A DNA stretch of 64,000 bases from Burkholderiales bacterium. GTDB lineage: Bacteria; Pseudomonadota; Gammaproteobacteria; Burkholderiales; Burkholderiaceae_C. The stretch lies in contig JACPOK010000016.1 in the NCBI GenBank assembly GCA_016191525.1, forward strand, positions 1-64,000. The letters run 5' to 3'. Positions 23,680 to 40,423 of the stretch are shown here, one piece after another (within the stretch, counting starts at the first letter, position 1; every line of letters starts with the position of its first letter). The notes beneath the pieces were generated by a model. It had not been told where the DNA came from and made no database searches. It saw nothing but the letters and a program-made list of their open reading frames with translations. The translations under genes and the position numbers were made by a program.

Positions 23680-23728
23680 GCGACGCACGCCCAAAGAAGG
23701 CGAGAATCCGCTTCGGAGGATTCGTTTG

Positions 23729-24886
23729 ATGACGTGGATCGACCATGACCTATCCGGACAGCTCCTGACGCTGTGCCAGTCCGGTGAAAGCCAGAAGCTT
23801 GACTACAAGCAGGAGATGCCGGCACAGGCCCGCGATCTCGCGAAGGCCATCGCCGCTTTCGCCACCTCTGGCGGGGGCCTTATTCTCCTGGGCGTCCGCG
23901 ACGACGGGTCCACTGTTGGAATGCCAAACGCCGACCAACCCGGCGTGCGAGACGCGCTGTCGCAGAGGATCGCTGGCATCTGCAAGGCAATTGACCCACC
24001 TGTGCGGCCCAGGCTGCGGTGGGCGGTGGCAAACGACCAGGTCGTACTCGCAGTAGACGTGCCCGCAGGAAGCGAGCCGATGTACTACGTCGACCACAAA
24101 CCCTACCTGAGGCATGAGACAACGTGCCGGCCTGCCAAGCCTTCCGAGGTGTACGCAGCAGTCAAAGCCCACACGCAGGAACCGGCAGACTCTGGAGGCA
24201 ACACAAATGCCACCCTGACCCGCCTGGCTGGGGTTTTGGTGACGCTGCTGCGCTGGGCTCACACCGATTCTGATGCGCGCAATCTGAAGCCATGGGTCGA
24301 TGAGTGGGAATGGGACGCGAAGAATGCGGCCGGTACCCTGCGCGACTTGGCGATCGAAGAGTCAGTCAACGGTACAGAGCTGGAGGCCGAATTGCGGACG
24401 CTCGCAGAGGCGCTCGACGAGGTAGCGAACTTCACCCACACCCTAGGCAGTGGGCGCGATTTCGACGAGGTCACAGAGCACGTCGGTCGTATAGCGCAGG
24501 AAATGGTAGACAAGCGCATTTCACCTGTTCCTTTTAGCGCGGAGGCGGAGGGCAGCATCCGGCAGGCAATCCTGAAGTACAGCCGCAAGCTCAAGGATCT
24601 CTGGGCCCGCGCAGAACAGGCCCCGTTCACCAATCAAGTGCCGCAAGCGCAGACGGAGTCGGGCGAGATGGGCCGACGGCTCGTCGAGTTCAGCTTTTAC
24701 GGCGTTACTCTGCTTGAAGGCCAACTGCGTGAGCAGGTCCGGGAAGTTGGTTTACGACTGTTTGAAATCGAGACGCGCACCATGTACTGCGACGGCGGGG
24801 ATTCGCAGCGACGCGCCATTGCCGAAGGGCTTGCTTGTTCGGCATTGCTCTCTGATGTTGCCGCTTCCATCGAGAAAACTCAGTAA
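23729..24886 (+). CDS. Schlafen/AlbA_2 domain ATP-binding protein
   Basis: A 385-residue protein. The N-terminal 130 residues are an AlbA_2 (Schlafen-like) domain: GESQKLDYKQEMP, LAKAIAAFATSGGGLILLGVRDDG, and a strand with the PMYYVDHKPYLRHETTCRPA pattern. These domains bind nucleic acid or act as nucleases and occur in regulators and anti-phage systems. Residues 150-385 are helical and not recognised. The ATG at 23729 has GGAGGA eight bases upstream; a TTG one codon earlier is less likely. It converges with the minus gene ending at 24880, overlapping by seven bases. It may form part of the accessory defence region. Confidence 0.75.
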   Translation: MTWIDHDLSGQLLTLCQSGESQKLDYKQEMPAQARDLAKAIAAFATSGGGLILLGVRDDGSTVGMPNADQPGVRDALSQRIAGICKAIDPPVRPRLRWAVANDQVVLAVDVPAGSEPMYYVDHKPYLRHETTCRPAKPSEVYAAVKAHTQEPADSGGNTNATLTRLAGVLVTLLRWAHTDSDARNLKPWVDEWEWDAKNAAGTLRDLAIEESVNGTELEAELRTLAEALDEVANFTHTLGSGRDFDEVTEHVGRIAQEMVDKRISPVPFSAEAEGSIRQAILKYSRKLKDLWARAEQAPFTNQVPQAQTESGEMGRRLVEFSFYGVTLLEGQLREQVREVGLRLFEIETRTMYCDGGDSQRRAIAEGLACSALLSDVAASIEKTQ

Positions 24887-25623
24887 GCTGCAGTAGCCTG
24901 GTACCGAACGCTGAAACTCCAGGGAGCGTATTTCTCCAGCGTGAGCAACAGTTCATGAGTGATCGTACGGACACATGGATACTGAGGACTTTTAAGCAAG
25001 CCTTCTCCGTTATCTGCATCAACCGTCGACGGTGTTTTTGACTCCAAGATTGGGAGAGTCATACGAATCTGCCCGCTTCCGATTGAAACCGCCTTCATCC
25101 CCAGGAGACGCCCTGAACGAAAAGCCTCATAGAGGGAGGAGAGGCCGGGATCGACGTGTGCCCCGCCGTCAGTGTCCGCAACTGCGGTGACGATGTCCAT
25201 TCGACACATTGTTTCTCCCGTAGGTGCTCTCAATACGACCCCAGTCCACCATTCCGGAAAAGGCAGGCGACTGCGAACATCCGGCACTTCCAGCAGCGGC
25301 ACGTAATGGCCACCTCGCTCCGCATTGAACGACATAGGAGTCAGTGCACAACCCACTGGCAAGACATTCGAACGGTGCCGGCCCGGTGCACTGTAGAACC
25401 GCCCGCTGCGAAGGCCAAGTTGCTGTAGCAAGGAATTGGACCGACCGGTCTGATGCAACGCAATCCGAAGAGACGCCGCCATGGGCTTGGCAAGCGCCAA
25501 CGTTCCTCTGTCGTAGCCAGCGCAGTAATGCACCATCAAGGAAACCTGCTCAACTAGAGCGGAGCGAAGTTGCTCCCTCGTTTGCTGAACACGGTCTTTG
25601 CGCGGTGGATCAGCTTTCAGCAT
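24880..25623 (-). CDS. Unknown protein coupled to the KAP NTPase gene
   Basis: I chose the ATG at 25623 (MLKADPPRKDRVQQTREQL), giving 247 residues. It lies 14 bases inside the end of the KAP NTPase gene, so the two are translationally coupled. A longer in-frame extension would read through the NTPase gene and is unlikely. The sequence has an N-terminal helical part (QLRSALVEQVSLMVHYCAGYD) and a beta-rich C-terminal half, without membrane segments, and I recognise no family. Its constant link to a KAP NTPase is the only clue. A partner or effector of that ATPase is the natural guess. Confidence 0.72.
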   Translation of the reverse strand: MLKADPPRKDRVQQTREQLRSALVEQVSLMVHYCAGYDRGTLALAKPMAASLRIALHQTGRSNSLLQQLGLRSGRFYSAPGRHRSNVLPVGCALTPMSFNAERGGHYVPLLEVPDVRSRLPFPEWWTGVVLRAPTGETMCRMDIVTAVADTDGGAHVDPGLSSLYEAFRSGRLLGMKAVSIGSGQIRMTLPILESKTPSTVDADNGEGLLKSPQYPCVRTITHELLLTLEKYAPWSFSVRYQATAAY

Positions 25624-27856
25624 CGGCGTCTTCGGGTTCGCCAGCCTGGTTTGCTGCTTTGTGAATGTAAGCAAACTGATGCGCGATCTTCCGAGCCATC
25701 GGACCATCAGCGCGGTACTGTGGATTGTCCATCTCGGCACCATACCGCGCGCGTAGATTGGCGATCAGGTATTCAGGCGTGATGAGAGATGCGATCTGGT
25801 CGTAGCTCTCACGCCGGAGGTCTGAGCGAACGGGCAGTCCACTTTCCATTTCCCAGCCTTCTCCGACATAGGTATCGAGAAACTCATCCAAAGCCTCCGG
25901 TCTCGCGTCGAATGCTTGGCGCAAATGTGGCTCGACGCCTTCCTTGCCGTCAGCCTTTAACCAAAGCCAGTACAACCCAGGAGCATCGGTACCGAACTGC
26001 TGGAATATCGGTGAACCGTTGTTGGCCGTTCTGACGCGATCAGCAAGGAGCGCATAAATTGGCGGGTCGCCCGCCTCCGGCAGAACTACGTACTCTTCTG
26101 TTCGATCATGAGAGTGCGTAAGCCAGCGGCTACATTCCATCGCGAATGACAGAGGCTGTGCGCTCTGTACAACGCTCTCTACGGCTGCCTGGCGATCGGC
26201 TTGAGGTATCCGGCGCATCAGTTGTGCCAAGAGAAATCCGGCTTGCATTCGCGTGCCGCCAAGCACGAAGGCCCCGCGCTCGCGCGGCAGCTGGCCGCCA
26301 TTGCGCGCCACGGCCAAAGCCAGTGGCAATGCGGCTTGAACGTCCAGTTGATCGGCGCGCTCTCGCAGCACTTGGATGAGTTGCGGGATTGCGCGTTTCG
26401 GATATCTAGCTAATCGTGCGTCCTGGTCCGCCACGGCGCCCGTGGACAGCGCGACGATGAGAGTTGCGACCTCGGTGTCTGAAATGTCCCCCTCGGGAAC
26501 GCCGTAGACAAAGTACCGCCTGAAATACCGCCCCGAGCAGATGCGTTGGGTTGAGGCCCAAATCTCGTCCCACTCGCCACCGTAGTTCATATTCCCGGTT
26601 CTTGGAAAAAGGCCTTTGATCAACCGCTCGCGGACGACTTCGCGTTCATTGCTGGTTGACCCTGGCATGGCATCCACCAGCAAATCATTGATTCGGGAGG
26701 GCGGTGGCTCCAGGTTTCGAACTCGCCTCTCGCCTTCGCCCTTCAGGAAGAGGTCGGGGTTGTCGCGGATCGCCGCATAGAGTTTGGGGTACAAGACTCT
26801 CAAACCTTCGACGAGCATGAATTCAGCGATGTTGACCTCACCCTTAACGAGCGGCAAGGCGAACATGAGGGAGTTGGCATAAAGCTTTGCGACTCGCGGA
26901 GTTTCCAGTTTGGGCTCCAGGCCATCCACAAAGTGGCGCATGAATATATCGACCTGTTGCTTCTCTAGCGTGATGCCAGCTTGACCGAGGGCCTGCTCTA
27001 CCCCTTCAAAAGCAAGCTGGCGAAGGCTTATCCGATCCACAGGGGGCAGGTGCAACGGGACCTGAATGATCTTTTCCAGGAATGCGCGCCCTGCCTCGTC
27101 ACCTCCGGCGCCGTATCTTTCTCCAAGCGCGGCCGCGACCACCGAATCATCGAATGCCAGCACATAGCAAGTGCGCCTGAAGCTGGCTGACAACTTCACA
27201 AGCTTGAAGATCGCGTGCGTCTCGTCTCGGTCTAGCCGGTCGATGTCATCTATGAGAATGACCAGGCGCTTCCCGCTATGTCCAAGCAGCGCATCAATCT
27301 TTTCCTTCAGCTGATCCAGGCTGACGCGAGACAGGGACTCGCCCATGTTCTTGGCAGCCTCCCCCGGGTTGAGGTCTACGCCTGGCAATGAAACTGAAAT
27401 CAACGATAGAACGCCTCCATATGTTTCGAGAAGCGCTGCGACTTTCTCCTTGAGTGCGGGTTCCTCTCCCAGAGCCTGAGACAGGGTGGAAAAGAATCCG
27501 CGCAGCAGCGCGTCCTCGGAAGGGAAATGCCATGGATTGAATCGGATGGTGATGACGTGCTCGTGTTGATCTAGCGCTTCCTCCATCATTTTCAGGACGG
27601 AAGTCTTTCCGTCGCCCCATGGTCCGAATAAACCGATGACGATGCTGGAAGGGTCTGCGCGATGGGCAATGGTTTGGGCGATCCGTGCGGCAAACGGCGC
27701 GCGTCCAAATCGGTCTTGCGTCTTGGATGTGATCGGTTCGTCCGATGAATAGGGATCTTTTGCTTCTGTATCCGGATCGGCACTGGCCGTGTCCTCGACT
27801 TTTGGCACATCCTCCGGAGGAGTCGTTTTGCGGATCAATCGGTCTAGCCACTTCAT
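25610..27856 (-). CDS. KAP family P-loop NTPase
   Basis: A 748-residue P-loop NTPase of the KAP group (STAND/AAA-like, usually membrane- or defence-associated). Walker A is GPWGDGKTS at residues 78-86, preceded by the KAP-type FAARIAQTIAHRADPSSIVIGLF. The helix VLKMMEEAL follows, and Walker B is LVILIDDIDRLDR (about 196-208), with the family DR-L-D. The membrane insertion seen in many KAP proteins is not obvious; LSLISVSLPGVDLNPGEA is the nearest equivalent. The C-terminal half is helical. It has an AAAGGA ribosome site. In bacteria KAP NTPases are common in plasmid and anti-phage islands, which fits the surroundings. Confidence 0.87.
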   Translation of the reverse strand: MKWLDRLIRKTTPPEDVPKVEDTASADPDTEAKDPYSSDEPITSKTQDRFGRAPFAARIAQTIAHRADPSSIVIGLFGPWGDGKTSVLKMMEEALDQHEHVITIRFNPWHFPSEDALLRGFFSTLSQALGEEPALKEKVAALLETYGGVLSLISVSLPGVDLNPGEAAKNMGESLSRVSLDQLKEKIDALLGHSGKRLVILIDDIDRLDRDETHAIFKLVKLSASFRRTCYVLAFDDSVVAAALGERYGAGGDEAGRAFLEKIIQVPLHLPPVDRISLRQLAFEGVEQALGQAGITLEKQQVDIFMRHFVDGLEPKLETPRVAKLYANSLMFALPLVKGEVNIAEFMLVEGLRVLYPKLYAAIRDNPDLFLKGEGERRVRNLEPPPSRINDLLVDAMPGSTSNEREVVRERLIKGLFPRTGNMNYGGEWDEIWASTQRICSGRYFRRYFVYGVPEGDISDTEVATLIVALSTGAVADQDARLARYPKRAIPQLIQVLRERADQLDVQAALPLALAVARNGGQLPRERGAFVLGGTRMQAGFLLAQLMRRIPQADRQAAVESVVQSAQPLSFAMECSRWLTHSHDRTEEYVVLPEAGDPPIYALLADRVRTANNGSPIFQQFGTDAPGLYWLWLKADGKEGVEPHLRQAFDARPEALDEFLDTYVGEGWEMESGLPVRSDLRRESYDQIASLITPEYLIANLRARYGAEMDNPQYRADGPMARKIAHQFAYIHKAANQAGEPEDADAES

Positions 27857-28052: not shown

Positions 28053-28508
28053 ATGAAATCCAACTACTGGGTAGGTAATCGCCCGTCGGGCGGCAAGGCG
28101 TGGGCATACACCGATCGCGGCTGCGAGATCGCAGACCCTGCGATCCAGGCGACAGTGACGGAGATATATCGCCACTACGCGCGCCTGTGGAATGAGATCG
28201 AACTCGATCGCGATCGATCTTTGGAAGAACACACGCACCAGATCGCGGGCGCGTCGGCCGTCAACGGGGGCGGCAGGATGTTTGCGCTCCACGCTCAGGA
28301 CGGAGATACACATTGGGTCCTGGAGCTGCTGTTTGCGCGAGGGTTTGACCTGTTCGGCGAAGGCATGTCATTCGCAATGACCGAGCCAGATTCGCTTTCT
28401 GCGTTCCGGTCCATGCGTCTACACTGGAATGAGGGCGGCCAGGAAGCCTTCTCCAACTGGCTGAAAACTGCCCCGAAGGCATCGGTGCGCGAAGGGAGTC
28501 TCGCGTAG
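28053..28508 (+). CDS. Hypothetical protein
   Basis: A 151-residue soluble acidic protein, divergent from the KAP gene 196 bases away. It starts MKSNYWVGNRPSGGKAWAYTD with GAGGA four bases upstream of ATG. It has no membrane segment, repeat or motif that I recognise. Codon use is biased to GC at third positions, as in real genes of the region. Its role is unknown; it may belong to the accessory cluster. Confidence 0.6.
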   Translation: MKSNYWVGNRPSGGKAWAYTDRGCEIADPAIQATVTEIYRHYARLWNEIELDRDRSLEEHTHQIAGASAVNGGGRMFALHAQDGDTHWVLELLFARGFDLFGEGMSFAMTEPDSLSAFRSMRLHWNEGGQEAFSNWLKTAPKASVREGSLA

Positions 28509-28842
28509 GGCCGTCCAGCTTCTCCCGCGTTGCTATGCGCGCATCCGCCAATGAAGATTCGCAGATTCAAGCGCAAGGCGTTTCCTTCACCGCGACTCGA
28601 TTCATTGATCTCGAAATTGTCGGGGACCGCCCATGATCTGGACGTCCACAAAGTGCTTCCGGAAGTCGCCGGCATTACGTTGCAATCCCCGCTGCAGGGC
28701 TTGCGCGTTCCACCGGATCCAGTGTCCTCAAAGCCAATTCGCGCCGCACAAGGGAAACGGCGACCTCGAATCTTGGTGAGAAATTCACCAGAATTTGAGC
28801 GTTACAGTCTGTATCCTCCGGGTACTACCACGTGCGCATGCA
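28509..28842. other. Intergenic region with no supported gene
   Basis: A 334-base stretch before the PRTase-CE gene. A plus reading frame crosses it but has no family likeness and an arginine/proline-rich composition typical of chance frames. No strong terminator or repeat was seen. The promoter of the next operon should lie in its last 100 bases. Confidence 0.4.
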
Positions 28843-29739
28843 ATGTCACTGTCCGAAGACGAGTCTGAATACATCGACCTGGTTCGAGACAGGGCGATGC
28901 GTCAGATCGACAGCAACGTCTGGGAGGGCATCCAGCGCGACCGGCTGACCCACTGGCTCGGTTCGCTGAAAAACATCGATGCGGAGCTCCTGGGCGCCTA
29001 CCTTCTGGACAACCTCTGCTACCGCTCCCGCGGCCAGTACAACGCGATGCTCGATGCGTTGTTTCTGGACCTGCCCATGCCAGGCAGCGCGGCCGGCGAC
29101 CTGCTGGTGGACACCCTGCGGGGGAAAAAGGCCGCCAACCCCACATGCGGCGTGCGCCTCGCACCGGTGATCGGGCACCTAGCGCCCCCGACCAAGTCCG
29201 GCCCCTATATCCTGCGGCTCGTGCAGCGCCGGTTTCTGGTGGACAGCGACTGGCTGGTCTGGCCCCACTTGCTGGGTCAGGCGAGCAACGTCACCGACTT
29301 GTACTTTGTCGATGACTTCTGCGGCACGGGGGAGCAGTTTGACAAGTTCCTCAAGGGCATCCACTTCGGCCGGTTCCTGCAGGCCAACCCGAAGATCAAG
29401 GTGACCTACCTCGTGACCACGATCCACACCAAGGGCAGGGATCGTATCGTCAACGACTACCCGTACGTCCAGCTCAAGTGGGCCGAGCTGCTTGAAGACA
29501 GTCACGCCGTGCTGGACGCTTCCTGCCTGGCCCGCTACAAGGTCATAGGCTTCGCGGAGAAGATCAACGCTCAGTACACCCAAGCCGTGAAGGCGCTGGG
29601 CCTGCCGCAGGGCGGCAAGATGGCCGACGGCTTCGGCGAGCTGGCACTGGCGTATTCCTTCGCCCACGCGACCCCGAACAACACGCTGCCCATCTTCTGG
29701 ATGGGTACGCAGCACCTGACCCCCTTGCTGGATCGCTGA
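28843..29739 (+). CDS. PRTase-CE-like protein of a conflict system
   Basis: A 298-residue soluble protein. Residues 152-170 (DLYFVDDFCGTGEQFDKFL) are a phosphoribosyltransferase-type PRPP loop: two aspartates then GTG. NLCYRSRGQYNAMLDALF near residue 57 and the C-terminal IFWMGTQHLTPLLDR match the layout of the PRTase-like family described in bacterial conflict systems next to an ORC/CDC6-type ATPase, which is exactly the next gene. I chose the ATG at 28843. The next gene starts four bases after the stop. Biochemical action is unknown; a base- or ribosyl-transfer to a target is possible. Confidence 0.8.
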   Translation: MSLSEDESEYIDLVRDRAMRQIDSNVWEGIQRDRLTHWLGSLKNIDAELLGAYLLDNLCYRSRGQYNAMLDALFLDLPMPGSAAGDLLVDTLRGKKAANPTCGVRLAPVIGHLAPPTKSGPYILRLVQRRFLVDSDWLVWPHLLGQASNVTDLYFVDDFCGTGEQFDKFLKGIHFGRFLQANPKIKVTYLVTTIHTKGRDRIVNDYPYVQLKWAELLEDSHAVLDASCLARYKVIGFAEKINAQYTQAVKALGLPQGGKMADGFGELALAYSFAHATPNNTLPIFWMGTQHLTPLLDR

Positions 29740-29742
29740 GCC

Positions 29743-31707
29743 ATGATGCAAAACGCGTTCATCCGCAACCGGGCCGAAGAATTCGACCACGACGTCTGGT
29801 CCACGTACGTACTGCCGCTGTACTTCCCGCAGCTGGGCCTGCATGAAGCGCGCAAGTCACAGGTGCTGCAGGGCGGCCGTGGCTGCGGCAAGACAGCCTT
29901 GCTGCGCTACTTGTCGTATCCGAGCCAATTCTCGCCTTCGCGAATGGCGGTGCCGTCCTCCGCGCTGCAGACCATTGGGCTGTACCTGAAGGCTGATTCG
30001 ACCTACTTCAGCGGATTCACCGGCTATGGTGAGAGTGAGGAACGCTGGCGCGACATCTTTGAGCATGCGCTCACCTTGGCGCTCGCCGAGCAGATCGTCG
30101 GCTCTGTCCGTGCGCTCAACTGCACGTCCGAGCGCCTAGGCCACTTCGGCAAGCTGACCCAGTTGGACTTCAAAGACGCCGTGCAGGGATTTGCCGGAGA
30201 CGAGGTGCCTGCCGACTTGGTAGGCTTCGAGAAGTGGCTTCGGTTGCAGCGCCAGTTCCTGTCCCGCTGGTTCAAAAATTTCGACTCTACTCAGCCGCCG
30301 ACGCTCCTGCCGCTCAAAGGCTTCCTGAGCGCACTGATCGGCGAGCTGCGTGGCAAGCTGCCCTATCTGTCCAACAGCGTGTTCGCCGTCTACGTGGACG
30401 AGTACGAAAACCTGCTGGACTACCAACAGCGGTTCGTCAATACGATGATCAAAGGCGGCGAGCCGCCGCTGATCTTCCACGTCGCCATGAAACCCAATGG
30501 CATGCGCACACGGCAGACCATCGGGACCGAGTCGATCCAGGAAACCGCCGATTACCGCCTGATCCGGCTGGACGAAGAACTCAAACCCTCTTTCAGCCAG
30601 TTCTGCGCCGAGCTGTTCTTCTTCCGGCTGATCAGCGAGGCCGGCCTCCTGGAGGAGCTCACGCCGGTCGTCGCCCAAGAGCTGCGAGAGCAAGAAGGCC
30701 TCGTTCGCCGCCGGTCGCCCGAGTATCAGGGGCGTGTGCTTGATGAGATCAACCGAATCCTGCCGGGGCAGCGGTACAGCGAGGTGGCCAGCCAGGTGCT
30801 CAGCGACACCGCGCTGCGAGGACGCTGGGAGAGCATCGTTGCCCAGGCGCTCAAGGACGAAGGTTCCAAGCTCACCCCCGACGACTTCCGCGATGTGCAG
30901 TTCCCCGAGGAGTCGGTGGTCAACGCGGCACTGCTGCACCAGCGGTCCAAGCGATCCAAGGAGGTGCAGGAGGAGTTCGCCAAGCTGCGCGCCGGCAAGA
31001 CGTCAAAGTACAAGACCGCCGACTGGACCCACCACATCCTCGTCGGCACGCTGCTATTGATGTACCTGCCGCTGCGCCAGAAGCCCTGTCCGATCTACGC
31101 CGGCTTCGACGCGTTCGTGCAGCTGTCGGGCATCAGCGTGCGGCACTTTCTCGAGCTTTGCCACCTGTCGATCGGCGACAGTGCCCCTAAGAATTCGCTG
31201 GCCAACTTCAGCGTTCCCGTCAAAGAGCAGGCCGAAGCGGCCGTTCGGGCGAGCCGCAAGTTCCGCGGCGAGGTCTCCAGCTTTGGCGATCAGGGCAACC
31301 GCCTGCTGGCGCTGGTCAACCTGCTCGGCAAACTGTTCCGCCTGTCGCAGGGCCGCTACTCACAGAGCGAAGCCGAGCGGACCCATTTCTCCATCGTCGG
31401 CGAGGAGCTCACGATTGCCGCCGACCAAGTGCTGAAGGAAGCGTTGAAGTGGTCGGTCCTGCTGGACGTGCCCGAGACCAAGGTCAAAGGCAACCGCTAC
31501 GAGTCCAACGATTACATCCTCAACCCCATCTACGCACCGTTCTTTGGCCTGTCGTACAACAAGGGGCGCAAGCTGGAGATGCCGTCGGCGGAGGCGGAAA
31601 CCATGTTGGTCGGCAAGCTCGACGACTTCACCAAACTACTGCGCCAGTACGAGGTCAAGTGGGGGGCCGACAGCGGCGACCAGTTCTCGCTGGGCCTGGA
31701 GGGCTGA
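29743..31707 (+). CDS. ORC/CDC6-like AAA ATPase of a conflict system
   Basis: A 654-residue P-loop ATPase. Walker A is GGRGCGKTALLRYL (44-57), Walker B is FAVYVDEYENLL (214-225), and a sensor-like stretch FHVAMKPNGMRTRQT (about 244-258) follows. It starts with the sequence AFIRNRAEEFDHDVWSTYV typical of the bacterial ORC-CDC6 ATPase group. The C-terminal 350 residues are largely helical and end in a winged-helix-like region. It stands between the PRTase-CE gene (3 bases) and an unknown gene (1 base), so the three form one operon. It likely acts as the switch that senses or assembles on a target. Confidence 0.83.
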   Translation: MMQNAFIRNRAEEFDHDVWSTYVLPLYFPQLGLHEARKSQVLQGGRGCGKTALLRYLSYPSQFSPSRMAVPSSALQTIGLYLKADSTYFSGFTGYGESEERWRDIFEHALTLALAEQIVGSVRALNCTSERLGHFGKLTQLDFKDAVQGFAGDEVPADLVGFEKWLRLQRQFLSRWFKNFDSTQPPTLLPLKGFLSALIGELRGKLPYLSNSVFAVYVDEYENLLDYQQRFVNTMIKGGEPPLIFHVAMKPNGMRTRQTIGTESIQETADYRLIRLDEELKPSFSQFCAELFFFRLISEAGLLEELTPVVAQELREQEGLVRRRSPEYQGRVLDEINRILPGQRYSEVASQVLSDTALRGRWESIVAQALKDEGSKLTPDDFRDVQFPEESVVNAALLHQRSKRSKEVQEEFAKLRAGKTSKYKTADWTHHILVGTLLLMYLPLRQKPCPIYAGFDAFVQLSGISVRHFLELCHLSIGDSAPKNSLANFSVPVKEQAEAAVRASRKFRGEVSSFGDQGNRLLALVNLLGKLFRLSQGRYSQSEAERTHFSIVGEELTIAADQVLKEALKWSVLLDVPETKVKGNRYESNDYILNPIYAPFFGLSYNKGRKLEMPSAEAETMLVGKLDDFTKLLRQYEVKWGADSGDQFSLGLEG

Positions 31708-31708
31708 A

Positions 31709-32635
31709 ATGCGGCGTTTCCGCATCCAGTCGCGCACCCACGATGAGCCAGTGGCGCCGGCAGCGGTGGCGGGCAGTTGGGAGATGGCCGTCATTGGCGA
31801 GGACGGCGACCTGGACGAGCGGTCCAAAGCCGCCGGCACCTACGTCCGCGCCAATGCGAAAACGACGCACATGGTTCGTTTCGACATCGCGGGACACAAG
31901 AACGAACTGCGGCTCAATGGCACGGCGCTGCGTCTGGCTGCCTTGAAGGGGCGGTTTGCCGGCGTCAAGAGCCTGCTGGTGGAAGCCAGTAGCCTGAGCT
32001 TTCCAGAGATCCTCTACGTGACACTGGCAGCCATTTATGCCCGCATCCCCGCGCTTCGCTTTGTCTACGTGGAACCCCGGGAATACCGCCGCGACATCCA
32101 GGGCCGCCTTTGCGACCAGCGCAACTTCGAGTTGAGCGACAACCGCCGCTTCCAGGCCATCCCCGGCTTTCAGACCAACCTCAGTGAAACCGAAGTGGGG
32201 CAGGCCGTCTTCTTCCTCGGCTTTGAAGGCTCCAGGCTGGGGCAGGCGCTAGAGCAGCAGGAGGTGCTGCGCGGCTGGGGCAAGCATGCGGTGTTTGGCG
32301 TGCCCGCGTTCTCGCCGGGCTGGGAGATCGACGCCATGGCCAACAACGTGCAGTACCTGGGCAAGGGCGATCAGGTGAAATACGCCTCGGCCGCCAGTGC
32401 CGACGCCGCCTACCGCTTGCTCAGCACGCTTCTTGAACAGGACAAAGAGGAGCGGCCGATCTTGGTGGCGCCGCTGGGTACCAAGCCGCATGCGATTGGC
32501 GCGGCGCTGTTCCTGATCGAAAACGAGTCCATGGACCGGGCATTGCTGCTGTACGACCACCCGACGCGCTCGAGCGGCCGGTCCAGCGAAGTGCGCCGCT
32601 GGCACTTCTTCGACGTCAGCGACGCCGGGGGCTAG
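31709..32635 (+). CDS. Third protein of the PRTase-CE / ORC operon, unknown
   Basis: A 308-residue soluble protein. The ATG at 31709 is one base after the ATPase stop; the longer frame upstream is a shadow. The first 90 residues are beta-rich (SWEMAVIGEDGDLDERSKAA). The centre has LLVEASSLSFPEILYVTLAAIYA, and the C-terminal part ILVAPLGTKPHAIGAALFLI followed by ALLLYDHPTRSSGRSS has the rhythm of a Rossmann-like, CARF-type ligand fold. That reading is my inference; no known family is certain. Its 3' end overlaps the convergent methyltransferase gene by four bases. Confidence 0.75.
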   Translation: MRRFRIQSRTHDEPVAPAAVAGSWEMAVIGEDGDLDERSKAAGTYVRANAKTTHMVRFDIAGHKNELRLNGTALRLAALKGRFAGVKSLLVEASSLSFPEILYVTLAAIYARIPALRFVYVEPREYRRDIQGRLCDQRNFELSDNRRFQAIPGFQTNLSETEVGQAVFFLGFEGSRLGQALEQQEVLRGWGKHAVFGVPAFSPGWEIDAMANNVQYLGKGDQVKYASAASADAAYRLLSTLLEQDKEERPILVAPLGTKPHAIGAALFLIENESMDRALLLYDHPTRSSGRSSEVRRWHFFDVSDAGG

Positions 32636-33795
32636 GCGGCAAACACCGGCATCTGCAGCAGCTCGCGCTTGGTCAATACCGTTGCGCAGACACCCTTGCT
32701 CGCGCCCTGCAGCCAGGCACTGAACTCCGGGTGACACAGGGACTGGTACACCAGATCCCGCACCCGCGCTGGCGCCCGGATGCGGAACACGTGATCGGTG
32801 ATCGCTGCCTCGCCGGAGGACATCATCACCGGCTCCCAGCGCACCCTTGAACCGGTGCGAGGCAGAAGGATGTCTCCCTTGCGGGCCGTGAGCACGCCCT
32901 CATAGGTGGGCTCATGCATCGGGCTGGTGATACGGCGGTTCCTGGCGCGATTCAGGTCGGTGGTGTGCACGGCCGGGATGCAGAGATCCTCGGCTTCCTT
33001 GCGCGACAGCACGCCGCGGTCGATCGACACGTCCAGGTCCTTGAGCTGCGGCCCGCCGACTGGGCCCGCCAGCCTGGCCTTGTGGTACCGCGCATCCAGC
33101 CGCGCACCCGGTGCAAGCTTGGCCTTCAGCACCAAACGGGGGGTGGCGTCGGCTCGGCTCATCTCGCAAATTTCGGTTTCCACACCACCCTGTCCCTTGG
33201 TATCGACGACCAGCACCACGGTGCGGGCTTCGGTGTCCAGGAAGGCGCGACCGCCCGACACCTCAATGGCCTTGACCAGTTGGTACTGCTCCATGAGCAG
33301 GGCGCGGATGCGGCGGTAGACGTCGCCGTCCGCGAAACCGATCGGCATCACAAAGACTACCCGGGCACCGGAAACTCGCGCCGTCACCAAGGCACGCGCC
33401 AGGAATTGCACTTCGGCCCGGTCGGTGCCTAGCTTGCCGCCCAGCCCTGCAAACGCTTTGGGCAGCCAGGCAAGGCCCGCCTCGGTCGCGCCTACGAAGG
33501 GCGGGTTGCCGACGCAGCCCAAGCGCATGCCGGCGAGGGGAGCCAGCTTGACTGTCAATCCGTTGCCCTCACGCAGGTGGGCGTCCACCAGATTCGTGGC
33601 GGCTTCCGCCAGCCGCTGGCCGTCAATGTCAAACCCGTAGAGCTCCACTGGCCGCCGGGCCCGCTGGGCGACCGCCTGCAACAGCGCACCTTCACCCACG
33701 GCGAAGTCCACCACAGCGTCGCAGGGGCCTAGCTCGCGGGCCACGGTGCGCGCGATGCTGTCGGGTGTCATGAACTGACCGAGTTGTCTCTTCAT
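32632..33795 (-). CDS. N6-adenine-type DNA methyltransferase with a target-recognition-like C-terminus
   Basis: A 387-residue gamma-class methyltransferase. It begins RQLGQFMTPDSIARTVAREL, the usual N-terminus of type I/IIG modification enzymes. Motif I is VVDFAVGEGALL (about 28-39) with the acidic FDIDG after it. Motif IV is NPPF (97-100). From about residue 240 the sequence resembles a specificity domain: LKDLDVSIDRGVLSRKEAE then GDILLPRTGSRVRWEPVM. No restriction nuclease gene is beside it. It may protect or mark DNA for the conflict operon it converges on. It is transcribed divergently from the HTH gene. Confidence 0.85.
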   Translation of the reverse strand: MKRQLGQFMTPDSIARTVARELGPCDAVVDFAVGEGALLQAVAQRARRPVELYGFDIDGQRLAEAATNLVDAHLREGNGLTVKLAPLAGMRLGCVGNPPFVGATEAGLAWLPKAFAGLGGKLGTDRAEVQFLARALVTARVSGARVVFVMPIGFADGDVYRRIRALLMEQYQLVKAIEVSGGRAFLDTEARTVVLVVDTKGQGGVETEICEMSRADATPRLVLKAKLAPGARLDARYHKARLAGPVGGPQLKDLDVSIDRGVLSRKEAEDLCIPAVHTTDLNRARNRRITSPMHEPTYEGVLTARKGDILLPRTGSRVRWEPVMMSSGEAAITDHVFRIRAPARVRDLVYQSLCHPEFSAWLQGASKGVCATVLTKRELLQMPVFAA

Positions 33796-33799
33796 GTGG

Positions 33800-33829
33800 T
33801 TGCGGCGTGCATTTGCCTAATGATAATAT
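33800..33829 (+). promoter_or_regulatory. Probable promoter of the HTH gene
   Basis: TTGCGG (33800-33805) and GATAAT (33822-33827), spaced by 16 bases, resemble a sigma-70 promoter. The start codon at 33838 is only 10 bases beyond, so the transcript would have almost no leader. GATAATATC at the -10 box has its reverse complement GATATTATC inside the gene near 34163, which could serve as an autoregulatory site. The region also contains the start of the divergent methyltransferase gene (33795). Confidence 0.4.
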
Positions 33830-33837
33830 CGCGCCGC

Positions 33838-34239
33838 ATGCCACGTCAACAACGTTCGGATAAAGCGGTTGCCGAAATCGCAAAGCGCTTCATCACGGCC
33901 GCCCAGGAACACCTGGGCCTGGCCCCTGCGGACCTTTGGCGAGCCTTGGGGTACGCCAACTCCAGTACGGTGCACTCTGTGACAAAAGGGGAAACTCTGC
34001 CCGATTTCGTCCGTATCGCTGAGCACCAAGCCTATATGCGAGACGCGCGCGGGCGTTCGCTGAACCTGCACTGGGTGATCACAGGCCAAGGCAGTCCCGT
34101 AGTGGAGCCGGGGCAAGCTGGCAGGGTAGGGCGTGCGAGCGCCAAGGAATCGGCAGAGAACGATATTATCGTGAAATTGCGACGCATGAAACCGAGCCGG
34201 CGAGCCACACTGGTGAAGTTCCTGGACGAGTTTTCCTAG
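33838..34239 (+). CDS. Helix-turn-helix regulator (phage-repressor-like)
   Basis: A 133-residue protein. Residues 12-60 form an XRE-like HTH (FITAAQEHLGLAPADLWRAL, then SSTVHSVTKGETLPDF), followed by LNLHWVITGQGSPV, the phrase seen after the HTH in phage-type repressors. The C-terminus is basic and helical (IVKLRRMKPSRRATLVKFL). I prefer the ATG at 33838 (MPRQQRSDK) to an in-frame upstream start because the promoter-like sequence ends just before it. It converges with tniE, sharing the last four bases. It probably controls the methyltransferase and itself. Confidence 0.75.
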   Translation: MPRQQRSDKAVAEIAKRFITAAQEHLGLAPADLWRALGYANSSTVHSVTKGETLPDFVRIAEHQAYMRDARGRSLNLHWVITGQGSPVVEPGQAGRVGRASAKESAENDIIVKLRRMKPSRRATLVKFLDEFS

Positions 34240-35852
34240 GCACCGAGCCTCGCCCGCAGCACGGGCTTCACGTGGTGATCCACGGCGGACGCCGACAGAC
34301 TGTCCATCAGCATTCGCCCCGCGAATAGCAGCGGGTCGGCATCCAGGCCAGCTCGCCATTGCGGCGACGGCAGCGACGCCAGGATCGGGAGAAGGACCTC
34401 CGGCAACTCAAGCCACTCGCCGTCCAGCCTCAAATTGCGGAAGTCCTTGAGATCAAGATCGCTGTGGCGCAACTGCAGGATTCGGTCCAGCGGCGCATTC
34501 AGCAGCTTCGACAGGAGTTTCGCAGTGAGCGCCAGCCGCGCCGGCCGATTCGGCGACGACTCGATTGCGTCGCATATGGTCCGTACATACTGTGCTTGGC
34601 GCACCAAAGAAACCGGGGTGGCAGATTTTGGCTTCAGCTTGAGCCGCAAGCCATGTAGACCGTTCAGATGTGAGACGAAGGTGCTCAGTGAGGCTTTCAA
34701 TCCCGGCTTCTTCGCGACGAAGCTGTCCAGCGCCTTCTGGCCGACTTGAGTAGCGCGCGCGACCTTCGCCTGCGTGAGAAGCGCTACTGCGGCGTGGACA
34801 TAGCCTCTACGTGATCGGAGTGAAACGATGGGCTCACGGGCCAACAGAGCCCGTTCAAACCGATCTATGTCCTCCGCCCAAGGTTGGCCAGTGATGGCGT
34901 CACGCTTTGTGGAAAGGAGCCGCTCTTCGCTATGCCGTCGTCGCGTGGCGGCGTCGTCGTTCAGCAAACCCGCTTCCGCTAAGTACTGTGACAGCAAGCC
35001 CATCCGCCTCAATTCCTCCGTCGAGAAAATCTGCACTATCAGGGCCCCATCCAGCGGCACTGCGCGCTGCTCAAGCGCGACGTCCATCTTGGCGAGAAAT
35101 TGCAGGTACCGGGAGGCGCCAGCCGCCAGCTTGCTTGCGCGTCCGCTCTCGTTTCCCCACTGGGTGAAATTGGCATAGACGTCGCGTACCTCTTGCGTGG
35201 CCAGCAGGTTCTGGGCGCCATGCAACCGAGACAGATTTGCCCGCTTGATTCCACAAGACATGCACGGCAGTACGCCAGCGCCGCCCACTGTTACTCCGCA
35301 GTCGGGGCAGGGATGATTCGCCTCGGGAGCGGCAGCGCAGGCAGTGCACAACGGCCGCCGGTCCAAGGTCATCAGATTGACTGTCCGGTGTTTGCCGCAG
35401 CAACTGCAGGTGGCACCGACCGTTGACCTCAGGCACTTGTCGCACATTCGGCCGTTTTGGGGATGGCCGCTTGAACGGCTCAGCCGCGTACTTGGTGTGG
35501 CGCACACGTCGCATGGCTCAGGCGTTCGGTAGTAGCGCGCGCAGGCGGCACAAGCCACGCGCTGGCCAACGCGCAGGGATGCCTTGGGCGTGATCTTCCC
35601 GCATCTCAGACAATTGCGGTCCTCCCGCAGGCATTCGCCGCAAGTGGGTCTCTCGTCATTGCGGTGCGCCCGCGCTGTTTTTCCGCACACGTGACATGTT
35701 CTTGCCGGAAATACTCGCGGGTAGCAGATCGAGCAGTAGCCCGTACCCAAATGCACACGGTGAGCCTTTTCCATTTTCGTGCCACAGTTGCCACAGTCGG
35801 CACTGCGAGCCCGTGCCAGATAGACCCTTTCATCGATATCGAGCGGTGTCAT
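34236..35852 (-). CDS. tniE: Transposition-associated zinc-ribbon protein (TniE-like)
   Basis: A 538-residue protein, last of the five-gene tni operon and starting inside the tniD stop (ATGA). Residues 15-230 hold at least seven CxxC pairs in a row (for example CGNCGTKM, CHVCGK, CGECLRED, CLRCGK, CDVC, CSCCGK, CPDCG), a string of zinc ribbons. The C-terminal 250 residues resemble a tyrosine-recombinase core (LLSKLLNAPLDRILQLRHSDLDL, HHVKPVLRARLG) but end without an active-site tyrosine. The order tniC-A-B-D-E and the target comM are those of Tn6022/AbaR-type elements. Its function there is not settled. Confidence 0.75.
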   Translation of the reverse strand: MTPLDIDERVYLARARSADCGNCGTKMEKAHRVHLGTGYCSICYPRVFPARTCHVCGKTARAHRNDERPTCGECLREDRNCLRCGKITPKASLRVGQRVACAACARYYRTPEPCDVCATPSTRLSRSSGHPQNGRMCDKCLRSTVGATCSCCGKHRTVNLMTLDRRPLCTACAAAPEANHPCPDCGVTVGGAGVLPCMSCGIKRANLSRLHGAQNLLATQEVRDVYANFTQWGNESGRASKLAAGASRYLQFLAKMDVALEQRAVPLDGALIVQIFSTEELRRMGLLSQYLAEAGLLNDDAATRRRHSEERLLSTKRDAITGQPWAEDIDRFERALLAREPIVSLRSRRGYVHAAVALLTQAKVARATQVGQKALDSFVAKKPGLKASLSTFVSHLNGLHGLRLKLKPKSATPVSLVRQAQYVRTICDAIESSPNRPARLALTAKLLSKLLNAPLDRILQLRHSDLDLKDFRNLRLDGEWLELPEVLLPILASLPSPQWRAGLDADPLLFAGRMLMDSLSASAVDHHVKPVLRARLGA

Positions 35853-36772
35853 GCTGTCTTCGCCAACCGGGCCTTCGCGCGCCGAGGAAACTTCACCTTG
35901 GCAGCAAGTCGAATCAGCATTTCCGCTCGAAGGACGCGGTTCCGCGGCAACTTGGCACAGCGTCTTCGACCTTCCTTTACAACTCGCCTGATGGCCTGGA
36001 CTGCGGGTCCGGCGGTCGCCCGAACAAGCGTTGAAGCACCTACCGTGACAAGGAGCGGGCGCCGCTGCGCCAACCGCCAGTAGCTCCAGGGCTCGACGCT
36101 GGGGGCAAAGGTTGGGTCGCGCTGTGCGGCATTGCTCAATGCCGCATGGAATCCGTCCAACATCTCTGGCTCGCCGTTCGATGCACGGTGCCAGACGGAG
36201 CGAACCCGCATCTGCAGGACCTGCTCTTCACGTGAAGGGCGCTCAATGCGGCCGCGGTAAAGAGGAATGGTGCATCTGTCGCAACATGCCGTCATCAATG
36301 CGTCCCGCCTGTACGGTGCGAAGGGAGCATCACAATGAGGACAACTGTCTCGCAGTGCTATCAAATGTACGCTGCAGATCCAGGTTGAGGCCAGGCGCCA
36401 CTCCAGCGGCAGTTGACGCGCGTCGGCTGACAGACAGACCGGGCAGTACAGTTGCCCATACCGCAGCCGCTTACGGTGATAGATGCCCACAGGATTGAGC
36501 CATCTCTGGAAGCCACTGCGCTGCGTCGTTAACCCCGCCGCAGCAAGCATCGGAAGGACCGTCATGGCTTCGACTTGCGTCGTATCCAGATCAGCCCATT
36601 TCGCGATTTGGCCAATTGCCGCGGATCCGATACTCCGGTCGAGGTCGCTACTCCAAATCGACCAGCCCAAGCCGATGCGCTGCGCCATCGATGACGGTGC
36701 GTCGCCTTGCTGCCAGGCACAACGCACGAGAAATGAGCCGAGAAGCTCGCCGTCGAATGGTTGCGCGGTCAT
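35849..36772 (-). CDS. tniD: TniQ family target-selection protein
   Basis: A 307-residue TniQ/TnsD-type protein. The N-terminal TniQ domain has GELLGSFLVRCAWQQGD, and YGQLYCPVCLSADARQLPLEWRL then CSVHLIALRDSCPHCDAPF gives the zinc-binding C-x2-C/H signature, followed by ACCDRCTIPLYRG. In Tn7-like elements this protein binds the attachment site and recruits the ATPase. Here the site is within comM. I start at the ATG 36772, one base after the tniB stop; a GTG at 36784 would overlap tniB. Confidence 0.85.
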   Translation of the reverse strand: MTAQPFDGELLGSFLVRCAWQQGDAPSSMAQRIGLGWSIWSSDLDRSIGSAAIGQIAKWADLDTTQVEAMTVLPMLAAAGLTTQRSGFQRWLNPVGIYHRKRLRYGQLYCPVCLSADARQLPLEWRLASTWICSVHLIALRDSCPHCDAPFAPYRRDALMTACCDRCTIPLYRGRIERPSREEQVLQMRVRSVWHRASNGEPEMLDGFHAALSNAAQRDPTFAPSVEPWSYWRLAQRRPLLVTVGASTLVRATAGPAVQAIRRVVKEGRRRCAKLPRNRVLRAEMLIRLAAKVKFPRRAKARLAKTA

Positions 36773-36773
36773 C

Positions 36774-37676
36774 TCATGCGTCACTGGGTTGTGGCGAAGC
36801 CGTCAACGAAGCTGCCTGGCGCCACTTGCGCGCATTAGTCAGGATATCGAAGGTAATTCGATCATTGCCGGTCCTGAGCGCGACCTGCGCTGCACGCATG
36901 ATCAGCTTGCGGACGGATCCAATCGTGCCGTTGCAGCCCTTGTAAATCTCGAACACCATTCCCGGGGATGTCAGGTTTGATGGTTTTGGCAGCGGGATCA
37001 GCTGTTCGAAGGCGGCCACCAGGCTGACGAAGTCCTCGTTGGCCGACCACAGCGGAAGCGGCAACCGCAGAAACCGGTTGACGAACTGGGGATCGATCGC
37101 CAGTGCGCGGGTGACGTCGCTCGTTCCACAAGCAACGATGCTGAGCTGGCGCATATTCGACAGCCGCTTTAACGACGCCATGAACAGCTTGTGCTGCTTG
37201 GCGGGACTGTTCAAGATTGCGTGGAGTTCATCAATCACCAGCACCGATGTCTGGCTGATCGCCATTTCCTGGTGGACGATGGCCTCAAGCCGCTCCGGCC
37301 GCGCATCGGCTCGATGGGAGACACCCATTGCGGTCAGGATGGCGCTGTAGAGCCTGCCTTCGTCTGCGGTCGGGGGAGCTTCGACCCAAAGCACTTTGGC
37401 TATGGGATAGTCCGCCTCGTCCAACACGATGGGATTCTTTCTCATGAAGTGTCGTGTCAGCGTGGTCTTGCCGTTGTCGCTGTCAGAGATCACGGCGCGG
37501 CACTCCGGCTTGATGCTGCGCGGGCGGTCGACCAGGTCCTGTAGCTCACGCAGGATGTAATCGCTCGCCGGATAGTCGATGTGCGGAGGATCTTGCGCGA
37601 TGAACGCGAGCTTGTCGCTCAACGGCGCTTCCAGGAGCTTCGCCGCTTGCTTGGACAAGTGATCACGGGAAATCAT
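36774..37676 (-). CDS. tniB: TniB/TnsC-type AAA ATPase
   Basis: A 300-residue transposition ATPase. The P-loop is VISDSDNGKTTLTRHF (about 63-78), and Walker B is VLVIDELHAIL (about 145-155). Both are embedded in the TniB pattern PASDYILRELQDLVDRPRS and MRQLSIVACGTSDVTRAL. It links the target-recognition protein to the transposase. The ATG overlaps the tniA stop by four bases. The gene is full length for the family. Confidence 0.9.
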   Translation of the reverse strand: MISRDHLSKQAAKLLEAPLSDKLAFIAQDPPHIDYPASDYILRELQDLVDRPRSIKPECRAVISDSDNGKTTLTRHFMRKNPIVLDEADYPIAKVLWVEAPPTADEGRLYSAILTAMGVSHRADARPERLEAIVHQEMAISQTSVLVIDELHAILNSPAKQHKLFMASLKRLSNMRQLSIVACGTSDVTRALAIDPQFVNRFLRLPLPLWSANEDFVSLVAAFEQLIPLPKPSNLTSPGMVFEIYKGCNGTIGSVRKLIMRAAQVALRTGNDRITFDILTNARKWRQAASLTASPQPSDA

Positions 37677-39619
37677 TGCTCCTCGCTGACGTTAAATGCC
37701 CGAACCTTTTTGCCGGCGAACGCCGCGAACGGGTTGCTTGTGGTGTCCACTTCAGCAGACTGGGGATCCATTTGTTGCTCGATGCGTGAACGATCCTGCT
37801 TACCGGGAGCCGTAGGCGTCGTCTGCTTACGCTTGGAACGGGCGCGCTTGGTGGCCGCCACCGCCTCCTCCTGGCGCTTGGCGCTGCGATCACGGTAGCC
37901 TCGCTTGGCTACTTTGTCCTCCATCTGCTTGCCGTGCGCGTGATCGCGGGAGTCGATGGCCATCAGCTCGTCCACGCTGATCCGGTCTTGCTCATCATCC
38001 TCGGCGGCTTGCAAAGGCCATCGATCGAGCTTCACGTACTGCTTGATGTCGGGGTCAAGGAACCACACGTTGCGCGGGTAGTTCGGGTGGTACTTGATGA
38101 CGAACTTGCGTTTGACCGTGGGATGATCCAAGTCTGGAGCGTTCACCCAGCGATTGAGGGACTCGTGGTAGTAGTCCGCCTTTCCGAAGCGGACGCCCGA
38201 GGGCGATACCACGCGCATCTCGAATGGCAGGAAGTCCAGCTTGAGTTTTTCAGGGTCAGAGATCTGCACGGGGAGACCAGCGCCGCGGACAGTCGCTGTG
38301 CCCATGATTTCATTCTCCCAAGCGTTCTTGGGTGGCATTTTCAACATGCGATGCTTGTCCACGTGGTAGTAGTTGACGATCCAGTCAGCTACTTCCACCT
38401 CGAGCTCCCACAAGGTGTAGACGGATTTCTTTCGTGGGTCGTATGTGCCGCGCTGGGCTGGATTGGCGAACGTTGTGCCAGGCTTCTTTCGCAGCATGGC
38501 GTTGACATTGCCCACCATCCGTTCGATGTGAGCGCCATAGCGCGGCTGCTTGACTGGTCGCAGCTCCAAGTCGATGCCGTGCTCCTTGCAGCCGAAGCGA
38601 AGGGTCTCGCCACGGAATTCCTTGGCGTTATCGCAATGGAGCTTGAGGATCTTTCCCTGTACGGGCCAATTGCCCGAGATGCCGAGTGAACCGAGGTAGC
38701 CCTTTTTGGGCAGCATGCCCATAGCGATTGCCATACCGGCGGCGACGGACGAAGGTGCCCGCATGCTGAGGTAGAAGCCCACGATCATGCGCGTCTTCAC
38801 GCAGATTAAGAGCGTAAGCCACGGCCGGCCCCAAGGCAGCCGGGTGTCCGAGTACACCGCCATCATGTCCAGACGGACATGGTCCATTTGGACGGGATTT
38901 AGCGGGCCAACAGGCGTTGGGAACGTTCCCGGCGTGGGCAAGTTGAGATCCGCATCTTCAGGATGCCCTCGCCGCCGAGATACGACATCCCTTGGAACTG
39001 CGGCGATCCGGTTTCGAATAGTGTTTTCGTGGGGTACCGGCTTGTTCTCCGCTTCACACCGTTCGCCAACAGTCGTGATGATTTCTGCCGGAACGAGTTG
39101 CTGCGAATCCAGATAGAGAGTGTCAATTGTGTCCTGGATGATTTCCTCAACACGCGGATCCAGCTTGCTGCCCGATTTGGGGCCACGTGTTTCATCGGTC
39201 AAGGCAGCTAGCCCACCGCCTTCGAAGCTCTTGATCCAGGCATAGATCGTCACAACGCTTTTTCCGGCGACCTTGGCGACCGCTTCTACGTCCTTGCGTT
39301 TTCTTCCCCTCATAGTCAGCAGCGGCAAGATGACGTCAAGCCGGCTCTCCGCCTTGGCGATTTCAGCCTCTGAGTACCCCAGAATTTCCAGGCGTCTACG
39401 TGGAGTCGCATCAGATTCTGCAGGCCCACACTCGTCGACGATTTGCGACGCATGAACGATCTGATCGAGGAATGCCACTTCTGATCGCCCATTGGTCGGG
39501 TCTTCCACCAGGATTCGCTCGGAGGTGAGAACGCGCCGCACGGTGTGCAAGCGACCCTTGAAGCCGACGTGAACGCCAGGGCGGACGGCAAAGCCGCGGA
39601 AGTCAGCGCTCGAGGCCAT
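37673..39619 (-). CDS. tniA: TniA/TnsB-type DDE transposase
   Basis: A 648-residue transposase of the Mu/TnsB family. After N-terminal HTH parts (VEAVAKVAGKSVVTIYAWIKSF) the catalytic core has the first Asp in MDHVRLDMMAVYSD (about 270), the second Asp in LKLHCDNAKEFRG and the Glu in GAHIERMVGNVN: a complete DDE triad. The Mu C-terminal beta-barrel follows, with VRFGKADYYHESLNRWVN. The basic tail would bind tniB. ATG at 39619 is used; it overlaps tniC by 17 bases. The enzyme looks intact, so the element may be active. Confidence 0.92.
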   Translation of the reverse strand: MASSADFRGFAVRPGVHVGFKGRLHTVRRVLTSERILVEDPTNGRSEVAFLDQIVHASQIVDECGPAESDATPRRRLEILGYSEAEIAKAESRLDVILPLLTMRGRKRKDVEAVAKVAGKSVVTIYAWIKSFEGGGLAALTDETRGPKSGSKLDPRVEEIIQDTIDTLYLDSQQLVPAEIITTVGERCEAENKPVPHENTIRNRIAAVPRDVVSRRRGHPEDADLNLPTPGTFPTPVGPLNPVQMDHVRLDMMAVYSDTRLPWGRPWLTLLICVKTRMIVGFYLSMRAPSSVAAGMAIAMGMLPKKGYLGSLGISGNWPVQGKILKLHCDNAKEFRGETLRFGCKEHGIDLELRPVKQPRYGAHIERMVGNVNAMLRKKPGTTFANPAQRGTYDPRKKSVYTLWELEVEVADWIVNYYHVDKHRMLKMPPKNAWENEIMGTATVRGAGLPVQISDPEKLKLDFLPFEMRVVSPSGVRFGKADYYHESLNRWVNAPDLDHPTVKRKFVIKYHPNYPRNVWFLDPDIKQYVKLDRWPLQAAEDDEQDRISVDELMAIDSRDHAHGKQMEDKVAKRGYRDRSAKRQEEAVAATKRARSKRKQTTPTAPGKQDRSRIEQQMDPQSAEVDTTSNPFAAFAGKKVRAFNVSEEQ

Positions 39620-40316: not shown

Positions 40317-40423
40317 ATCAGTTCGATCAATCATTGTTGCCAGTATGATAAATAGGAGTGTAATTGAGCTACTCTGCATTGGGAACTGTTCAGATCCAGT
40401 TCAACAAATTATTAGAATCCACA
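40317..40423. mobile_element. Right terminal region of the transposon
   Basis: A 107-base AT-rich segment between tniC and the comM remnant. GAACTG (40384-40389) and CAGTTC (40396-40401) form an inverted pair, and TTCAACAA with related GAACTG near 40322 may be transposase-binding repeats. It ends ACA at 40421-40423. Base 40424 on can be read in frame as comM (GC-GGC-TCA-CCG). A shift of the junction by up to seven bases is possible, since the target duplication cannot be checked without the left end. Confidence 0.6.

Follow-up and report, generated by a model that had tools for sequence, protein, structure and literature searches.

What is the role of an operon that couples a phosphoribosyltransferase (PRTase) to an ORC-CDC6-like ATPase and to a third protein for which no clear family had been recognized? 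The operon lies in a stretch of 64,000 nucleotides (nt) from a Burkholderiales bacterium (contig JACPOK010000016.1 of assembly GCA_016191525.1), the whole of which was analyzed and is called the window below. An earlier note on this DNA had described a three-gene conflict-type system. As far as sequence can tell, the gene cluster is probably an anti-virus system, and its placement among conflict-type systems is likely to be right. We propose, with a probability of roughly 0.5, that it is a mobile, methylation-linked four-gene module directed against invaders, in which the ORC-like ATPase and a CARF protein would sense invasion and release a nucleotide-attacking effector. As a whole the earlier interpretation is partly supported: the trio is real, but most of its relatives have four genes, and the DNA methylase encoded by the fourth had been overlooked.

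The three open reading frames (ORFs) are located on the forward strand, separated by 3 and 1 bases exactly as claimed, and show coding-like GC contents at the third codon position (0.83-0.87). A scan of the trio for promoters and terminators gave nothing exceeding shuffled sequences. The first gene (28843..29739, 298 amino acids from an ATG) encodes a predicted nucleotide-targeting effector of the PRTase-CE family (Pfam PF24390; E 9e-37, 127.7 bits against a curated cut-off of 27). The DDFCGTG motif on which the earlier note had based a phosphoribosyl pyrophosphate (PRPP)-loop protein was located in this ORF as VDDFCGTG; both the PRPP-binding DD motif and, in the predicted structure, the PRTase fold are present. 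Likeness to uracil PRTases was detected weakly by sequence (best E 0.007) and also by predicted fold. PRTase-CE proteins are predicted to destroy free nucleotides. The second gene (29743..31707, 654 amino acids) encodes an AAA+ ATPase with Walker patterns, a predicted switch or DNA-associated protein, which over residues 4-612 matches the ORC-CDC6-like family PF24389 that had been expected for it (E 4e-105, 353 bits against a cut-off of 27).

The third protein (31709..32635, 308 amino acids) had been regarded as lacking a clear family. Pfam and NCBIfam indeed yielded no significant family. This view is contradicted by a match of residues 22-302 to the PADLOC model CARF6--CARF_CARF_CARF (E 3.7e-65) and by a SAVED-like fold; the PADLOC 2.0.0 protein models used include CARF6 and PRTase_III-A. 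The predicted structure has a Rossmann CARF fold, and the closest folds are CARF proteins, several of which were solved with cyclic tetra-adenylate (cA4) or cyclic hexa-adenylate (cA6). The protein is thus predicted to be a CARF6-type, SAVED-like tandem Rossmann ligand sensor. The guess that it binds a ligand through the LVAPLGTKPHAIG region, located in this ORF, appears to be correct: P255, G257, T258, K259 and P260 are each conserved in at least 90% of 69 sequences, and GTK is, we presume, a CARF motif. No fused effector domain was found in the CARF protein, and the presumed effector is a separate protein of the operon. Pfam, PADLOC and NCBIfam detected no nuclease domain in any of the trio proteins.

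Related loci (numbered L) were collected through the ORC protein alone, which gave 80 genome loci and 2 viral-contig loci, to which loci from plasmids and from a sample of genomes of the phylum (genomes are numbered G) were added. Iterative profiles were built per protein, starting from the window sequence. All counts refer to 93 loci with a strong ORC match, window included, among which are at least five near-identical pairs. L002-L031 stand outside this count and were not used, the main ones having been replaced by longer fetched stretches and most of the rest being weak ATPase matches. L045-L051 were searched and have no ORC match at E < 1e-20 with the final profile, for which reason L046 falls outside the 93 despite having the trio; L171 and L178 were fetched later and are likewise outside. 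In 87 of the 93 loci the ORC gene has a PRTase homologue no more than 300 nt away and a CARF homologue no more than 600 nt away, a co-occurrence well above chance. All three genes are co-directional in the 86 loci passing a stricter threshold. Neither of the findings named beforehand as fatal to the proposal, a lack of conserved co-occurrence or a housekeeping fold, came out of the analysis.

Catalytic and ligand-binding patterns are well kept in these loci. The DD pattern of the PRTase is present in 85 of 88 survey homologues, Walker A and Walker B of the ATPase in 91 and 88 of the 93 loci, and a [GAS][TS]K pattern of the CARF protein in 85 of 89 (the longer P.GTKP-type pattern in 72 of 89). 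Alignments linked to structure were made after removal of near-duplicates, with 69 of 72 PRTases plus the window copy (L074, L094 and L111 left out) and 68 of 70 CARF proteins plus the window copy (L101 and L129 left out). The distances in the protein trees are correlated, at 0.87-0.90 among PRTase, ORC and CARF and at 0.61-0.66 between each of these and the methylase (81 four-gene loci); 200 permutations gave correlations of at most 0.12. Two loci harbour a second, shorter ORC-CDC6-like ATPase between the methylase and the trio (L085 5167-6888; L118 11892-13580), with Pfam matches over the cut-off and zinc-ribbon matches below it.

The fourth gene (32632..33795, reverse strand, 387 amino acids) is convergent with the trio, the palindrome CTAG being common to its stop codon and that of the third gene. 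It encodes an N6-adenine-type DNA methylase, supported by Pfam N6_Mtase (E 1e-7, over its cut-off), PADLOC MTase_II (E 1e-24) and an NPPF motif. The C-terminus resembles a specificity (target recognition domain, TRD) region, with a Specificity_I match of E 0.011 only. Of the 93 loci, 76 have a methylase homologue no farther than 300 nt from the trio and 6 more have one at 0.3-3 kb (82 in total), and all 82 homologues have an [NDS]PP[YFWV] pattern. In the remaining 11 loci, some of them at contig ends, no methylase was detected. No homologue was found farther than 3 kb from the trio in 709 kb of flanks, and with these counts adjacency by chance was ruled out. The gene is placed downstream and co-directional in 40 loci, downstream on the opposite strand in 27 and upstream in 9. 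Comparison within this methylase revealed equal conservation of the specificity-like region and the catalytic part at all levels of divergence, which would be expected if the methylase shared its site with the other components as readers. A hypervariable specificity domain in the style of type I restriction was looked for and not seen in the C-terminus, as judged without a yardstick family. One locus (L084 6775-7929) has a second N6-type methylase upstream of the trio in addition to a convergent one downstream.

Divergent from the methylase is a small gene (33820..34239, forward strand; its start is uncertain, the mechanical ORF beginning at 33784) for a helix-turn-helix (HTH)-like protein, a possible controller. 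Homologues are found beside the methylase in 10 loci, window included; in a further 14, of which three are weak, this position is taken by a second small family, whose L034 member is annotated as a helix-turn-helix regulator. The HTH label follows from position and from this related family, because the window copy itself has no match in Pfam. Upstream of the methylase a sigma-70-like promoter match was found on the reverse strand (33820..33849, TTGACG-18-TATCAT, 10/12), the sole match in 28400-34300; it is a weak one, since shuffled sequences average 0.9 matches.

Not all parts of the module are equally constant. The effector slot is taken by HD-CE in L039 and L042 and by a calcineurin-like phosphoesterase in the scanned locus L040, of which L041 is a near twin, while the ORC and CARF homologues stay. 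The methylase can change type as well: a C5-cytosine methylase lies just 5' of the module in L039 and an N6/N4-type methylase-like gene upstream in L036. Conversely, PRTase-CE is also encountered apart from the other two proteins. In the phylum sample of 398 genomes, the own one among them, 18 have it over the cut-off, and in six of these (G000, G043, G026, G187, G384 and G190) it lies beside ORC and CARF homologues. Among 36 other genomes of the window's genus, four have PRTase-CE over the cut-off, and only G439 (L171) also has ORC and CARF, in a locus of the PfkB/HAD class described below. Fifteen PRTase-CE loci without the ORC-CARF pair were fetched, and the one neighbour scanned in each of 10 was a reverse transcriptase in seven, a NADAR protein in two and a helicase in one. 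PRTase-CE therefore behaves as a portable effector, and ORC-CARF looks like the core, as judged in a survey anchored on ORC. A housekeeping role for the PRTase was ruled out, because its occurrence is patchy, it adjoins transposition genes and it swaps partners.

Several further neighbours were noted. The two NADAR-domain proteins (L168 and L169) are both from the window's genus, and L168 additionally carries a methylase-like gene and a type I specificity domain. A dUTPase_2-type gene is located immediately 5' of the PRTase gene in six loci (L035, L071, L073, L076, L094 and L121), with gaps of -6 to 22 nt in the five measured, and a ThyX homologue lies next to the module in L036, L119 and L122 (in L119 by a weak profile match only). 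These neighbours are hints that the effector may touch the deoxyuridine/deoxythymidine monophosphate pool. Four Pseudomonas loci (L093, L095, L099 and L112) encode a protein between CARF and methylase with a SIR2_2 domain, as assigned from the scanned L093 copy, which is possibly a second effector.

The module is widely and patchily distributed. The 80 genome loci were placed in Pseudomonadota, Planctomycetota, Bacteroidota, Bacillota, Actinomycetota, Campylobacterota and others, and in one Methanoregula metagenome bin. Among plasmids 154 records match ORC, of which 130 are from Klebsiella and 137 are predicted to be conjugative. A copy with an ORC about 33% identical is carried by L032 (NC_016846.1) and by most of these plasmid records; in L032, the one read in detail, it is complete with methylase and lies near repA. 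In six annotated plasmid relatives the methylase is found beside the trio in four (Klebsiella, Enterobacter, Diaphorobacter and Moraxella), and none is annotated there in the two rhizobial ones. The Klebsiella-type copy occurs in 4 of 5,426 E. coli genomes, plasmid-borne each time, and the strain names suggest conjugation tests; a scan of E. coli genomes with the window ORC DNA gave no match. A phage origin was ruled out, with no ORC match in 50,697 phage records, no match of the trio in PHROG and 2 viral contigs with an ORC match.

How might such a module work? According to its enzyme class, assigned from sequence, the methylase would mark host DNA. The ORC-like AAA+ and CARF/SAVED-like proteins, constant among the loci, would form a sensing and switching core that detects either unmarked invading DNA or a nucleotide signal that an invasion sets off. 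Binding of a putative ligand by the CARF protein and an ATP-driven rearrangement of ORC would then release PRTase-CE, which, judging from its family and from the exchange in its slot, may break down or divert free nucleotides by phosphoribosyl chemistry. Loss of nucleotides would halt replication of the invader and probably that of the cell too. In favour of this proposal are the constancy of the trio, the persistence of the methylase despite changes of place and strand, the tree correlations, the slot exchange, the kept catalytic patterns, the patchy spread and the plasmid and Tn7-like settings.

Several observations weigh against it. Support for the proposed function stops at sequence and predicted structure. 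The survey was anchored on ORC, so that the constancy of ORC is by design; the genome loci, the top 80 among 168 confirmed ones, are biased in favour of the window's branch; and the profile for the methylase was made from matches in these very loci. The close relatives L066 and L068 have trios that are 66% identical and methylases that are 26% identical, pointing to replacement of the whole methylase. No methylase homologue was detected beside the trio in L127, nor in L043, L044, L046, L171 and L178. In these last five the trio is flanked by a HAD-type protein of 632-647 amino acids (the L171 HAD match being below the cut-off, with weak SIS matches, also below the cut-off, in two of the proteins), and in four of the five also by a PfkB-like protein. 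DNA marking therefore cannot be universal. The outer neighbours, moreover, are mixed: phage-type integrases make up 4 of 116 scanned, and among the matches listed (25 of 166 and 25 of 90 families) restriction-modification, AbiEii, QatD, mad5-like and TnsD occur singly.

The loci without methylase speak against DNA methylation as the mark in every case and so keep alive another explanation, which we consider unlikely. An invader that digests the host chromosome would set free methylated mononucleotides, which would be sensed by the CARF/SAVED-like protein and signalled through ORC to the PRTase, so that the mark of the methylase would not be protective. A system that senses methylated mononucleotides, Metis, has reportedly been described; the literature search did not turn it up. 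Such a scheme fits a nucleotide-type sensor coupled to a methylase in a module without a known nucleotide cyclase, in a genome in which searches for Cas1, Cas10-palm and SMODS gave no match to any of them. It also fits the extra genes of the relatives without methylase, which encode small-molecule enzymes (PfkB-like, HAD), and the ThyX and dUTPase genes of some loci. However, the conserved specificity-like region would be needless if only a free methylated base were read. A fuller version of this idea is rather doubtful: the module would write its own alarm, its methylase marking host DNA and the SAVED-like sensor reading freed marked mononucleotides and releasing a PRTase that drains the pool, while in distant relatives the writer (an adenine or a cytosine methylase, or perhaps PfkB/HAD chemistry) would be exchanged along with a reader that has diverged strongly.

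The PRTase might instead make the signal, building an unusual nucleotide that is sensed by the CARF protein while the ORC ATPase acts on DNA. The kept catalytic motif, the resemblance to uracil PRTases and the nucleotide-type sensor in the same operon would agree with this, but HD-CE or a phosphoesterase in the same slot would not yield the same product, and PRTase-CE is also a neighbour of reverse transcriptases in loci that yielded no CARF homologue, making this role improbable. Stabilization of plasmids or transposons by post-segregational addiction, with a trio whose toxicity would be held off only as long as the methylase maintains the mark on host DNA, appears more improbable still. The module is frequent on conjugative plasmids, the window copy lies beside Tn7-like genes, and a small HTH-like gene often lies next to the methylase in divergent orientation, an arrangement known from some restriction-modification systems; such a role would be compatible with defence rather than opposed to it, and the module is also found in genome assemblies of varied bacteria. 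Hardly to be expected, finally, is a CARF protein ancillary to type III CRISPR or to the cyclic oligonucleotide-based antiphage signalling system (CBASS), answering a cyclic oligoadenylate made elsewhere in the cell. The closest folds, with their cA4 or cA6, speak for it. Against it stand the lack of any Cas1, Cas10-palm or SMODS match in the own genome and the counts in 38 genomes (the own one and 37 hosts of loci), with Cas1 in 9 and SMODS in 6. Cas10-palm was matched at E 0.001 in 23 of the 38, weakly (best 38.5 bits); the model also matches in E. coli, and its counts in other genomes therefore say little.

Directly beyond the small HTH-like gene of the window copy lie Tn7-like transposition genes (34236-40379), including a 538-amino-acid cysteine-rich protein without a Pfam match, TniQ, TniB, a Mu-type transposase and a TnsA-like protein. 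The end of the element is apparently near 40.4 kb, within a Mg-chelatase (ChlI/ComM-like) gene, the N-terminal part of which may be on another contig. No convincing inverted repeats that could serve as transposon ends were found in the window. About 1 kb upstream of the operon a KAP-type NTPase is encoded on the reverse strand (25610-27856; PADLOC PifA E 1e-70), preceded by a Schlafen/AlbA_2 domain protein on the forward strand (23726-24886).

If the four-gene module proposed here is real, the hint of a PRTase-CE and ORC pair grows into a system that combines an enzyme for DNA modification with a sensor for a ligand, a switch and an effector that can be exchanged. Its range takes in genome assemblies of many phyla, numerous Klebsiella plasmids and one metagenome bin of an archaeon. 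Such a module would join three separate themes of bacterial immunity, the marking of DNA, signalling by nucleotide second messengers and the depletion of nucleotides, and it raises the question of which ligand a CARF/SAVED-like protein would bind when searches of the genome yielded no cyclic-oligonucleotide synthase. In the literature searched, no recognised description of a PRTase-ORC-CARF-methylase system was found; the 2020 CARF and 2023 effector surveys were outside that search and a prior description is quite possible, since the combination may already be in the 2023 effector paper. That paper (Nicastro et al. 2023, doi 10.1093/nar/gkad879) is cited as a reference in PMC12839542 and PMC10853773.

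The module shares parts with several known systems. With the PRTase-CE/HD-CE/Calcineurin-CE systems it has the PRTase-CE and HD-CE effectors and the ORC-CDC6-like family in common, and PF24389, PF24390 and PF24391 are consecutive accessions. PRTase-CE, HD-CE and Calcineurin-CE were reportedly named as nucleotide-targeting effectors by Nicastro and co-workers (NAR, 2023). The CARF6 clade, said to go back to the 2020 CARF survey of Makarova and co-workers, is shared by the third protein, here without a fused effector; as neither Cas1 nor Cas10-palm was matched in the genome of the window, the module stands apart from the ancillary proteins of type III CRISPR-Cas. The SAVED receptors of CBASS (Cap4, Cap5) differ in that the effector is unfused here and that the genome has no SMODS (CD-NTase) match. 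Retrons with a phosphoribosyltransferase effector have the same PRTase family (PADLOC PRTase_III-A, in which we take III-A to be the retron type), and in 7 of the 10 tested loci an RVT_1 gene adjoins the homologue. The scanned neighbours in the window include no reverse transcriptase, and ORC and CARF would here take the place of sensing. Restriction-modification and BREX-like systems share a modification methylase with a specificity-like region, a companion ATPase and a small divergent HTH-like gene. The DNA methylase of restriction-modification is present (N6_Mtase, NPPF) and a DNA-cutting enzyme is not, the trio having no nuclease domain. The module would thus resemble a restriction-modification system in which the cutter has been replaced by a ligand-gated, nucleotide-destroying effector.

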